A DNA stretch of 64,000 bases from Joostella atrarenae. GTDB lineage: Bacteria; Bacteroidota; Bacteroidia; Flavobacteriales; Flavobacteriaceae. Both the position numbers and the translations under genes were made by a program. The stretch lies in contig NZ_JAETXX010000009.1 of the NCBI RefSeq assembly GCF_021764745.1, forward strand, positions 62,001 through 126,000. The letters are read 5' to 3'. This document shows, piece after piece, positions 61,075-64,000 of the stretch (position 1 is the first letter of the stretch; each line of letters opens with the position of its first letter). The notes beneath the pieces were generated by a model, which worked only from the letters and a program-made list of their open reading frames with translations, did not search any database and was not told the origin of the DNA.

Positions 61075-62619
61075 TTAAGCATTATCTTGATTTTCTTGAT
61101 AATCTTTCGTGTTTTTCTTCAGCAAATCAATAAAGGCATCTCCTGTAAAATCAATAATATCTGTTGCTGTTAGCGCTTCTACGCCAGAACGCAACACAGC
61201 TAGATCTCCAGCTCTTCCATGGATGTACACTCCCATTATCGCAGCTTCAAACAAACTATATCCCTGCGCTAAGAGTCCACAAATAACCCCTGTTAGCACA
61301 TCTCCGCTTCCCCCTGTTGCCATTCCTGGATTTCCTGTGGAATTAAAATACAATTCTTCTTTATTTATAGTAACCGTATATGCGCCCTTTATCAAAAGTA
61401 CCAATTCATTTTCTTTTGAAAACTGCTTCGCTTTTTCTAATTTATCAAAGTCGTCTTTCCAGCTTCCTATTAGCCGCTCCAATTCCTTTGGATGTGGCGT
61501 CAAAATAGCATTTCCTTTTATCGACTTTAAAAGATGTTTATTTTCAGAAATAATATTTAGAGCATCAGCATCTATCACTAAAGGTTTTTTATTCTGAATA
61601 ATAAAATCGGAAAAAGCTTTTACAGTAGCTGCGTGCTTCCCTAATCCTGGTCCGATTGCAATAGCGGTAGGCGTGATATCAAATTTTATATCAGAAATAT
61701 GTGTTTCCTCGGAATCTGTTAAAACCATCGCCTCAGGAAAAGAAGCTTGTATTGTTTGATACCCACATTTAGGAATGTAAGAAGTAACCAATCCAGCTCC
61801 AGAATGTAATGCAGCTTCGCTACACATAAGAGCAGCGCCAATTTTACCATAGCTACCTCCAATTATCAAAGCATGACCAAATGTGCCTTTATGAGAGAAT
61901 CTTCCACGTGGTTTATAAACCCCAAGAACATCATACTTTTCTACATAAAACATATCTGTAGGCTCTTTATACAAGTGTTCTGCATCCTGACCAATATCTA
62001 GAGCCTCCCAATATTCGGTATAAATCCCAGACTGCGGTAATAAGAAAATTAATTTAGGTAATTGAAATGTTAGCGTATAATTTGCTCTTATAACTGTATC
62101 TTTTTCTGTAATAGCCTTCTCCATATAAAGGCCCGAAGGAATATCTACAGAAAGAACAAAAGCACCACTTTTATTTATATGATTTATAATAGCAGCTACC
62201 CAACTAGCAGCTGGTCTATTCAAGCCGATTCCAAAAATAGCATCTATTACTATATCATTAGCACCAATTCTGGGAAGGTCATTATCTTCTGTAAGTAACT
62301 CCGGCCAATATTTTAGGTTTTTAATCCTATCAAAATTCAGCAAAAAATCTTTAGAACGTTTATCACTATAATTCACAACATAAGCAGAAATATCATACCC
62401 TTGTTTCAATAATAGTCGAGCTACAACCAAACCATCTCCTCCATTATTTCCTATTCCACAGAAAATATGAATCTTAACTTTTGTATTTACTAATTGTCTA
62501 TTTATCCAATTAAAAACTGTTTTACCAGCCCTCTCCATCAATTCATCACTGGTAATATTTTGCCTCTCAATTGTTAATTTATCAGCAAGGCGTATTTGTT
62601 TAGTAGAAAAAATCTTCAT
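61075..62619 (-). CDS. nnr: bifunctional NAD(P)H-hydrate epimerase/dehydratase
   Basis: A 514-residue repair enzyme for hydrated NADH and NADPH. The N-terminal YjeF epimerase domain (about 1-215) has FCGIGNNGGDGLVVARLL and IVDAIFGIGLNRP-like segments (seen as VIDAIFGIGLNRP). The C-terminal ribokinase-like ADP-dependent dehydratase (about 235-505) has KGTFGHALIIGGSYGKIGAA, AIGPGLGKHA and GMATGGSGDVLTGVICGLLA. Both active sites look intact. It is the first gene before hutH on this strand and is divergent from the thr operon. Confidence 0.93.
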   Translation of the reverse strand: MKIFSTKQIRLADKLTIERQNITSDELMERAGKTVFNWINRQLVNTKVKIHIFCGIGNNGGDGLVVARLLLKQGYDISAYVVNYSDKRSKDFLLNFDRIKNLKYWPELLTEDNDLPRIGANDIVIDAIFGIGLNRPAASWVAAIINHINKSGAFVLSVDIPSGLYMEKAITEKDTVIRANYTLTFQLPKLIFLLPQSGIYTEYWEALDIGQDAEHLYKEPTDMFYVEKYDVLGVYKPRGRFSHKGTFGHALIIGGSYGKIGAALMCSEAALHSGAGLVTSYIPKCGYQTIQASFPEAMVLTDSEETHISDIKFDITPTAIAIGPGLGKHAATVKAFSDFIIQNKKPLVIDADALNIISENKHLLKSIKGNAILTPHPKELERLIGSWKDDFDKLEKAKQFSKENELVLLIKGAYTVTINKEELYFNSTGNPGMATGGSGDVLTGVICGLLAQGYSLFEAAIMGVYIHGRAGDLAVLRSGVEALTATDIIDFTGDAFIDLLKKNTKDYQENQDNA

Positions 62620-62694
62620 TTTACAACAATTCTTTAGTTAAATTATTAAATTCTTAATAATAACTTTTATGTTTTTTTAATACTATAAAAGTAC

Positions 62695-62702
62695 TACATT
62701 TG
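62695..62702 (+). promoter_or_regulatory. -7 box TACATTTG of the thr leader
   Basis: TACATTTG fits TAnnTTTG. A start at about 62707-62709 would put the beginning of the RNA right at the TTACGAATAA arm that pairs with the leader coding region. No clear -33 TTTG is visible upstream. Confidence 0.45.
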
Positions 62703-62709
62703 AATACTA

Positions 62710-62890
62710 TTACGAATAAACACATGCAAAGTTTTAATAACATACATACTACTTCTATATTCTCCACGGAGAATACATGTATTGTTTCTATTATTCGTAA
62801 CACTACTATTATTACCCCTTTTGGGGTATAAATTTTCACATATCGTCCGTATATTATATTTGTTTAAATCCAAACAAAGGAGATTCCTTT
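62710..62890 (+). promoter_or_regulatory. thr attenuator: mutually exclusive hairpins
   Basis: Five pairings are visible. TTACGAATAA (62710-62719) pairs perfectly with TTATTCGTAA (62791-62800) inside the leader. TATTCTC/GAGAATA (62758-62775) lies within that loop. TACCCC-TTTT-GGGGTA (62813-62828) straddles the end of the leader and is followed by TAAATTTTC. TTTGTTT/AAACAAA (62859-62878) and AAAGGA/TCCTTT (62876-62890) share three bases and so exclude each other. A ribosome stalled at the Thr/Ile codons would open the first pairings. Which stem terminates is not clear, as T-runs are short. Confidence 0.6.
62724..62831 (+). CDS. thrL: Thr/Ile-rich leader peptide of the thr operon
   Basis: A 35-codon frame starts at ATG 62724 and stops at TAA 62829. 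The peptide begins MQSFNNIHTTSIFSTENT and ends CIVSIIRNTTIITPFGV: 7 Thr and 7 Ile in 35 residues, with a dense NTTIIT block near the end. Thr and Ile are the end products that flow from the aspartokinase/homoserine dehydrogenase encoded 268 bases downstream, so this has the makings of a classical attenuation peptide like thrL of enterobacteria (which is also Thr/Ile rich). The sequence is unrelated to thrL otherwise. Hairpins overlap it (see next entry). Confidence 0.8.
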   Translation: MQSFNNIHTTSIFSTENTCIVSIIRNTTIITPFGV

Positions 62891-62904
62891 TATAGATTAT
62901 AAAA

Positions 62905-63102
62905 ATGCAACAATACAAGCAGTACTATATAAAATTAGCCCATTGTAGTATTATATGCAAAAATATAAAAGCGATTACTCGAGGTTTTAGCAAACATAAT
63001 TTTCACATAAACAACACCCAACTAACTTTAAAAGAACTATTAAACATTATTATGGATCTCAATTCACACAAACACTCCATAATAGAAAAAACTAACAAAT
63101 GA
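62905..63102 (+). CDS. possible small coupled ORF in front of thrA
   Basis: A 65-codon frame (start MQQYKQYYIKLAHC) lies between the leader and thrA and ends in TGA that overlaps the thrA ATG as ATGA (63099-63102), the classical layout for translational coupling. An AAAGGAGA stretch lies about 20 bases upstream of its start. The sequence is rich in Asn, Ile, Lys and His and matches nothing I know, so it may be a chance frame, or it may only serve to bring ribosomes to thrA. Confidence 0.3.
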   Translation: MQQYKQYYIKLAHCSIICKNIKAITRGFSKHNFHINNTQLTLKELLNIIMDLNSHKHSIIEKTNK

Positions 63103-64000
63103 AAGTATTAAAATTTGGCGGCACTTCGGTTGCTAATGCAGAGAATATAGAAAAAGTAAAAGATATAGTCGTCAATAACTCAAAAGAGGAAAAAACTACC
63201 ATTATAGTTTCTGCCTTTGGAGGTGTTACAGATATGCTTGTAAAAGCCTCTCTCCTCGCCTCTTCACTAGATGAAGACTACAAAAATGTATTAGAGGAAA
63301 TAGAAGAAAGACATATTAAAACCGCCCAAGAACTTATCTCTATAAACAACCAAAGTAAAGTTATAAGTAATATAAAAAGAGAGCTAAATGTTCTTGAAAC
63401 TTTACTAGAAGGTGCTTTTTTAATCGGAGAAATCACTCCAAAATTACTAGATAAAATTGTTGGCTACGGAGAACTTCTATCTTCATTTATTATCAACGAA
63501 TATTTTGTAAAAGAAGGCTTGGAGAGTGTACATAAAGACAGTAGACTTCTTATAAAGACAGACGATTCTTTCGGGAAAGCTATCGTTGATTTTAAGACGA
63601 CTAATGAGCTTTGCGAAAATTATTTTGGTACTGTTAGTTATCAGGTAATTGTAGTTCCTGGTTTTGTAGCTTCTTCTGCAAAAGGAGAATCTACAACATT
63701 AGGACGTGGAGGTTCCGATTATACTGCAGCCATAATTGCAGCAGCTATAAATAGTGATGCCTTAGAAATATGGACAGACGTTAGCGGAATGTACACTGCC
63801 AATCCAAAACTTGTAAAACAAGCGTTTGCAATTCCACATATCTCGTATCAAGAAGCAATGGAACTGTCTCATTTTGGGGCTAAAGTTTTATATCCGCCAA
63901 CAATACAACCTGTTTTATCAAAAGGAATTCCTATTCATATAAAAAACACCTTCGCTCCTAATGAAGAAGGAACACTAATCACAAAAAACAACAACGGAAA
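63099..64000 (+). CDS. thrA: bifunctional aspartokinase/homoserine dehydrogenase (partial)
   Basis: 300 residues are visible before the window ends. This is the aspartokinase domain: KFGGTSVANAENI at the start, GYGELLSSFI at about 125-134, TLGRGGSDYTAA with the catalytic Arg/Asp near 205-217, EIWTDVSGMYTANPKLV, and MELSHFGAKVLYPPTIQPV. The last two forms, especially FGAKVLYPPTI, match the fused ThrA type, so a homoserine dehydrogenase domain is expected beyond the edge, followed by thrB and thrC as in other Bacteroidota. It phosphorylates aspartate, the first step to threonine, isoleucine and methionine, and is headed by the Thr/Ile leader. The fusion itself cannot be confirmed here. Confidence 0.9.
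   Translation, partial: MKVLKFGGTSVANAENIEKVKDIVVNNSKEEKTTIIVSAFGGVTDMLVKASLLASSLDEDYKNVLEEIEERHIKTAQELISINNQSKVISNIKRELNVLETLLEGAFLIGEITPKLLDKIVGYGELLSSFIINEYFVKEGLESVHKDSRLLIKTDDSFGKAIVDFKTTNELCENYFGTVSYQVIVVPGFVASSAKGESTTLGRGGSDYTAAIIAAAINSDALEIWTDVSGMYTANPKLVKQAFAIPHISYQEAMELSHFGAKVLYPPTIQPVLSKGIPIHIKNTFAPNEEGTLITKNNNG

Follow-up and report, generated by a model that had tools for sequence, protein, structure and literature searches.

What governs expression of the threonine operon in Joostella atrarenae, and what kind of signal would end transcription ahead of it, are the questions raised by the DNA upstream of thrA in the stretch analysed here (contig NZ_JAETXX010000009.1, positions 62,001 to 126,000; 64,000 nucleotides, hereafter the window). 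A short open reading frame (ORF) is placed there between a TAnnTTTG box and thrA-thrB-thrC, with thrB (TIGR00191) and thrC (TIGR00260) coming after thrA, beyond the window end. The box was identified by what we take to be the Bacteroidota -7 consensus, TAnnTTTG, and the RNA start is presumed to lie a few bases 3' of it, at about 62708. An earlier note on this DNA had described a 35-codon frame with seven Thr and seven Ile codons and an NTTIIT block, the box just upstream of it, a perfect 10-base pairing between the RNA start and the middle of the leader, a second hairpin inside that pairing (62758-62764/62769-62775) and a GC-rich hairpin over the leader end, all of which were recovered (Table 1), and had read the whole as a threonine attenuator. 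That observation is confirmed and the interpretation partly supported: judged by comparison of sequences, the thr leader of the window type is very likely to be a real, conserved and thr-specific leader-peptide attenuator. Ribosome-controlled attenuation of thrABC is likewise very likely, and the step that would end transcription is one that we infer.

Table 1. Positions of the thr leader features in the window.
Feature	Position	Strand	Remarks
-7 box, Bacteroidota type, TACATTTG (TAnnTTTG)	62695..62702	+	Read from the sequence
P0 5' strand, TTACGAATAA	62710..62719	+	At presumed RNA 5' end; 10-base complement of 62791-62800
Leader peptide ORF, 35 aa, MQSFNNIHTTSIFSTENTCIVSIIRNTTIITPFGV, 7 Thr + 7 Ile	62724..62831	+	Sequence; frame conserved in relatives
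Hairpin A, outer ATACAT 62742-62747/ATGTAT 62777-62782, inner TATTCTC 62758-62764/GAGAATA 62769-62775	62742..62782	+	
P0 3' strand, TTATTCGTAA	62791..62800	+	Directly 5' of Thr/Ile codon run
Regulatory codon block, Asn-Thr-Thr-Ile-Ile-Thr (NTTIIT)	62799..62816	+	Last Thr codon (ACC) within hairpin B
Hairpin B, TACCCC-TTTT-GGGGTA	62813..62828 (arms 62813-62818/62823-62828)	+	179/294 regions; two-sided stem changes between families
Leader stop, TAA	62829-62831	+	Directly 3' of hairpin B
Motif c, CATATCGTCCG	62839..62849	+	10 nt after B; CATAT invariant in 7/7 genus members
Hairpin D, TTTGTTT-AAATCC-AAACAAA	62859..62878 (arms 62859-62865/62872-62878)	+	Counterparts in relatives
Second post-leader hairpin	62876-62881/62885-62890		Shares bases with D; read from the sequence
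thrA start, bifunctional aspartokinase/homoserine dehydrogenase I	63099..64000	+	NF006959 above cut-off

Regions upstream of thrA homologues were collected from 7 loci of the genus, 80 named genome contigs and the hits of 124 of 149 family genomes, with 20 further sources from the class and 20 from the order, and with loci of families f23 (30) and f46 (26); f5, f23 and f46 are tentatively taken to be Weeksellaceae, a Cytophagales family and Sphingobacteriaceae. Removal of duplicates from these 305 loci left 294 distinct regions, among which a few cut by contig ends (L041, L086, L165 and L186 among them) were kept; the upstream DNA of the same-genus loci L005 and L007 is the same as that of Galbibacter pacificus (L010) and G. 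mesophilus (L011), which places the window in the genus Galbibacter. The scan demanded an open Thr/Ile-rich stretch (at least 4 of 10 codons) followed directly by a GC-core hairpin of no fewer than 5 pairs whose core reads CCC, GGG or CGG, and left L016 and L090 uncounted, where the hairpin is visible by eye. A Thr/Ile frame running into the GC-rich hairpin B was found in 179 of the 294 regions (77/85, 71/117, 6/20, 10/20, 12/29 and 3/23 by set), and ten dinucleotide-shuffled sets gave 0, 0, 0, 0, 0, 0, 3, 0, 2 and 0 matches under the same scan. For the Flavobacteriaceae, in which 148 of 202 distinct regions carry the element, the proposal of a Thr/Ile leader-peptide attenuator upstream of thrA is supported, and the comparison of Thr/Ile codons and pairing among relatives, which the earlier note had suggested as a check, was run and largely passed. 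The 115 of 294 regions in which the scan found no element are accounted for by scan strictness, by contig ends or by there being nothing similar present. A TAnnTTT[G/A] box accompanies the hairpin in 166 of 209 upstream loci (duplicates counted). Two genomes of 0.6 Mb (L262 and L263) keep thrA, with no Thr/Ile leader visible upstream of it.

Evidence that the frame is translated comes from its phase, which relative to the stem is identical in 148 of 148 Flavobacteriaceae hits. Within the 57 nt upstream of the stem, stops occur in none of the 148 in the Thr/Ile phase and in 104 and 85 in the other two phases, the scan itself having demanded an open stretch of 30 nt, in whichever frame. Across 154 distinct leaders, Thr and Ile together make up 58% of the last ten codons before B and 21.5% elsewhere (Thr 38% versus 12%, Ile 20% versus 10%); the phase test is the cleaner of the two, because the frame used for the content was picked for its Thr/Ile content. 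Information in the run amounts to 0.96, 0.47 and 0.44 bits for the three codon positions, so that the A shared by ACN and ATN codons is prominent and third positions show no clearly greater freedom than second positions. Where the stem core begins, the codon encodes Thr in every hit (100%) of groups A, B and C and of f5 and f23, and in 92% of the 13 other hits. The window leader is a short ORF before an operon with a codon run for that operon's end product. Conservation of a peptide rather than an RNA at the leader end was considered and is unsupported, because 33 of 179 hits (10 from Flavobacteriaceae and 23 others) have the stop within the loop, which is itself variable in sequence.

A sequence model covering the Thr run, B and motif c, derived from 38 sequences, was searched in 100 family genomes. 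All 54 matches with E<1e-3 sit just upstream of thrA (positions compared by eye); 15 of the genomes with such matches had supplied rows of the model and 39 had not. Weaker matches were found elsewhere too, and 30 genomes were without any match, 17 of which were also without a thrA hit. The pattern of B followed by c was sought separately in 21 genomes, where it lies at thrA in 7 of 7 genus genomes and at one extra place in G002, and gave one match each in 2 of 14 other genomes (G155, on a contig other than that of its thrA, and G159). These stray matches are regarded as background, because a backwards control pattern matched 6 times. Comparison of the leader DNA with plasmids gave no match.

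Hairpin B begins within the last Thr codon of the run, and in 173 of 179 hits the leader stop falls in its loop, in its 3' arm or no more than 6 nt past that arm. Of the 148 Flavobacteriaceae hits, 147 have C-G at the three inner pairs of B. In f23 these pairs are G-C in 13 of the 14 hits, and the Thr codon ACC is replaced by ACG alongside the GGG/CCC stem; both the amino acid and the pairing are therefore kept. At the fourth pair, 112 of the 148 Flavobacteriaceae hits have C-G and 36 have A-T. The earlier note had called the terminating stem unusual for lack of a long T-run, which is right as far as it goes, but in the window B satisfies a lenient terminator scan, with 5 T in 8 bases (1 match against 0.1 expected). 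A T-rich tail by the same lenient measure follows B in 8/16 hits of group A, 2/79 of B, 14/48 of C, 1/9 of f5, 3/14 of f23 and 4/13 others (32/179 overall), and a run of at least five T within 12 nt of the B stem in only 5 of 148 family hits.

The leader RNA from 62708 to 62880 is predicted to fold at -30.0 kcal/mol (shuffled mean -20.2, z -3.1; 2 of 200 shuffles as good) into a structure that comprises P0, hairpin A inside P0 (its inner part present), B over the leader end and D, and the predicted folds are similar across the seven genus members, the window included. The codon run is flanked by P0, which ends just before it, and by B, a geometry that would suit helices whose formation depends on the position of a ribosome. 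Of the ten P0 pairs, eight form in 7/7 genus members, in all of which ATTATTCGTA on the 3' strand is invariant; aligning the 18 group A sequences shows 78% pairing in P0 and covariation at 2 of 6 pairs. Within the genus alone 89.3% of cells pair, against 39-54% when slid. Covariation at this level is weak, the two-sided pair changes (four pairs in hairpin A) being no more than in shuffles (140 of 500 as high); hairpin D has 75.5% of its cells paired and no two-sided changes.

Pairing of each sequence with its own rather than a permuted partner was scored over 493 pairs of sequence windows per group (18 sequences of A, 45 or 50 of 84 of B and 43 of 55 of C), which gives a rough scale, since permuting ignores relatedness; in groups A, B and C, z exceeded 3 in 12, 15 and 17 instances and fell below -3 in 0, 4 and 9. 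By this measure P0 reached z 4.0 in group A (3.95 at the same position in C), hairpin A 4.3 in group A and 7.3 for its counterpart in B, and hairpin D 3.9 in group A and 8.3 for its counterpart in C. RNAalifold kept B alone in the 18 group A sequences, dropping P0, A and D, and kept A, B and D in group C. Two mutually exclusive hairpins had been claimed after the leader without coordinates. If D and the hairpin at 62876-62881/62885-62890 were meant, they do share bases, but only D has counterparts in relatives, the second hairpin being absent by eye from the other six genus members. D was also considered as a terminator and rejected, no T-run following it directly in the genus members read.

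Downstream of B, a [CT]ATA[TG] motif occurs at 6-12 nt in 123 of 179 hits (mean 12.8 and maximum 18 in 20 shuffles of the downstream sequence), and 19 of 179 hits are without it within 40 nt. Its form is CATATCGTCC in the window, TATATA..TCCGTCCG in the Muricauda relatives, CATATCATCC, CATATCATTC or CATATTATT in group f5/g153, and CATAT followed by CCC or ACC within a few bases in f23. Spacing from B, with the B stem counted as at most six pairs, peaks at 10 nt in group A, 8 in B and f5, 9 in f23 and 5 in C. Known pause and terminator hairpins act on polymerase from a similar distance. A local antiterminator formed by the GGGG arm of B with motif c received no support, its energies being worse than those of shuffles: the stretch from the GGGG arm onward is less structured than mononucleotide shuffles in three groups (mean z +0.62, +0.88 and +0.63 in A, B and C; z<0 in 22%, 7% and 25% of loci). 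Together with the absence of the second hairpin from the rest of the genus, this leaves the competition between post-leader hairpins unsupported in the form proposed in the earlier note.

The reading that we favour, to which we give an even chance, is a ribosome-controlled attenuator for thrABC in which a held ribosome keeps B open and the closing of B stops or pauses transcription near CATAT. Under a shortage of charged tRNA-Thr (or tRNA-Ile), the ribosome would stop on the Thr/Ile codons, its leading edge keeping the 5' arm of B open and its trailing edge melting P0, and with B open RNA polymerase would continue into thrABC. With Thr in good supply, the ribosome would complete the leader and depart, B would close a few to ten nt behind a polymerase located at CATAT, transcription would end or pause for long at that motif, and P0 and hairpin A would re-close the 5' part of the leader. 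Since B mostly fails the lenient terminator scan outside the window, the step that ends transcription may be a terminator lacking a U-tract, a prolonged pause or Rho, and in the Muricauda/Maribacter group it could be a long-range helix with c, then a T-run. A more specific form of this mechanism is proposed tentatively: a short GC hairpin with a CATAT-like motif about 5-10 nt downstream may act as a U-tract-less terminator or long-pause signal for Bacteroidota RNA polymerase, laid over the leader stop and switched off by a ribosome on the Thr codons, which would make the leader a one-hairpin attenuator with no antiterminator. A study in E. coli reports that ribosomes suppress terminators near stop codons but that terminators can be active in the first 100 bp of a gene (PMC4824070). 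On the first finding, polymerase would need to stay in place until the ribosome has gone; with B about 90 nt into the leader gene, the two findings speak both ways. Counting against the model are the scarcity of T-rich tails after B, the spacing peak of group C, at 5 nt and not 8-10, the 19 hits with no motif within 40 nt, the retention of B alone by RNAalifold in group A, the weak covariation in the genus, the limited freedom of third codon positions and the 115 regions in which the scan found no element.

A classical attenuator, in which a strand near the leader start (P1, for example AAACGGAC) pairs with motif c (GTCCGTTTTTT), a later T-run terminates and B only bridges the junction, draws its support from the Muricauda/Maribacter/Arenibacter group. 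Among its 84 sequences RNAalifold with RIBOSUM scoring gives P1 and B, with two-sided changes in 3 of 6 P1 pairs and 80% pairing; P1 further has an own-versus-permuted z of 2.6 (45 sequences) and a 5'-3' pairing p of 0.002 (83 sequences), and 90 of 148 family hits have at least five T in a row at 13-60 nt past B. However, default RNAalifold scoring of the same group keeps B alone and no P1, the 5'-3' helix test is negative in the window's own group (p 0.55; best z 2.4 of 77 pairs of sequence windows), and in the window itself c has no T-run and CGGAC is missing from the leader, which leaves this explanation unlikely. The corresponding test in group C gave p 0.10, and there the 5' end pairs with the D region at z 4.0, with no consistent structure. 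We consider it rather improbable that the leader peptide is instead coupled to Rho-dependent or protein-assisted termination, the unstructured stretch with c serving as a site of binding or pausing that departure of the ribosome would uncover. The low degree of structure after the GGGG arm (mean z +0.6 to +0.9 in three groups) and the partial conservation of motif c as sequence across families would fit such a site, and Rho has been suggested for mycobacterial cys leaders without terminators (Seliverstov, 2005; PMC1262725). The stretch is low in G (11%), yet the remainder up to thrA is lower still (7%), so that low G is not special, and a stalled ribosome would also leave the stretch exposed.

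Control of thrA translation or mRNA stability rather than of transcription would agree with the absence of a T-rich terminator tail from most hits and with the recurrence of hairpin D downstream. The distance from B to the thrA start, however, varies from 57 to 277 nt overall and from 87 to 277 nt within the genus, and this variability fits an output at the transcript level better than control at the thrA start, so that we judge this explanation to have a small chance of being right. That the element is a chance or decaying small ORF with no regulatory function would sit with the 115 regions in which the scan found none, but is hardly credible given the 0-3 matches among 294 in shuffled controls, the constant phase, the two-sided stem changes and the restriction of strong model matches to thrA.

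Upstream of hisG in the same genome (G000:C12, L223) there is a leader peptide, MTIYTSHHHHFHTCAQAR, followed by a GC-rich hairpin with seven T, and upstream of ilvD (L222) another, MKTQIINIISILVAVIISRG, followed by a GC-rich hairpin with six T. Read from their sequences, these his and ilv leaders would be textbook attenuators with ordinary T-run terminators, whereas no standard T-run terminator can be assigned to the thr leader of the window. Thr/Ile leaders also precede thrA in f46 and in genus g257 of f5, but there, unlike in the window, a separate GC-rich, terminator-like hairpin has a T-rich tail (22 of 26 loci in f46, with 3 to 9 T, and 4 of 4 in g257, by eye); a separate hairpin of this kind was also seen by eye in L287, L290 and L292 of f23. 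Other Bacteroidota thr leaders having separate terminators, the window type is a second design and not a general trait. Two genera of one family differ in this respect, one (L253-L256) having a leader with a T-run terminator and the other (L244-L252) a hairpin over the stop with CATAT. In f46, L294 and L295 carry a window-type leader. Identity of ThrA to the query is 61-62% at these two loci and 43-49% in most of the family, a difference suggestive of joint transfer of operon and leader; no leader is visible in L296 (ThrA 58%).

The enterobacterial thr operon leader (thrL; Rfam RF00506) lies ahead of thrABC and encodes a leader peptide with many Thr and Ile codons, and Bacteroid-trp (RF01692) is a trp-leader attenuator. 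The window shares with thrL a Thr/Ile-rich leader peptide ahead of thrABC and differs from it in having no Rfam match, no U-run terminator and a hairpin over the leader stop. Searches with Rfam gave no hit at the gathering threshold over the window and none at E<=5 over 62600-63200, and the models of the enterobacterial thr leader, the T-box and Bacteroid-trp had no match in the window. Bacteroid-trp is entered as a Bacteroidota RNA motif in the survey of Weinberg (2010; PMC2864571). The actinobacterial cys leaders and the LEU element, as presented by Seliverstov (2005; PMC1262725), resemble the window in combining a leader peptide with end-product codons and no obvious terminator, but belong to another phylum and to other amino acids, and LEU forms a pseudoknot that has a stem over the leuA Shine-Dalgarno box. 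Two reports mention clues for leader-peptide attenuation upstream of amino-acid operons in Flavobacterium psychrophilum (PMC9723704) and short ORFs that recall leader peptides in B. thetaiotaomicron (PMC7366714), and to judge from these mentions amino-acid attenuation in Bacteroidota seems little described. The design is absent from Rfam, and no description of a thr leader of the window type was recognised in the open-access PMC main texts among the matches listed. The element is common to many genera, has strong matches at one operon only and is built unlike the his and ilv leaders of its own genome, and it raises a testable question: can a hairpin without a U-tract end transcription in Bacteroidota when a conserved motif lies at the polymerase?

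Three further observations were made at the locus. A 65-codon ORF (62905-63102) lies between the leader and thrA and overlaps the thrA start by ATGA; it had no match among the NCBIfam models, and an ORF with a similar beginning (MQQYK) is present in L004. A candidate internal promoter, TATATTTG, lies near 62855 and is seen in some species only. The divergent gene at 61075-62619 of the window (minus strand), which adjoins thrA and is presumably an NAD(P)H-hydrate epimerase/dehydratase gene, has similar reverse-strand sequence upstream of thrA in several relatives.
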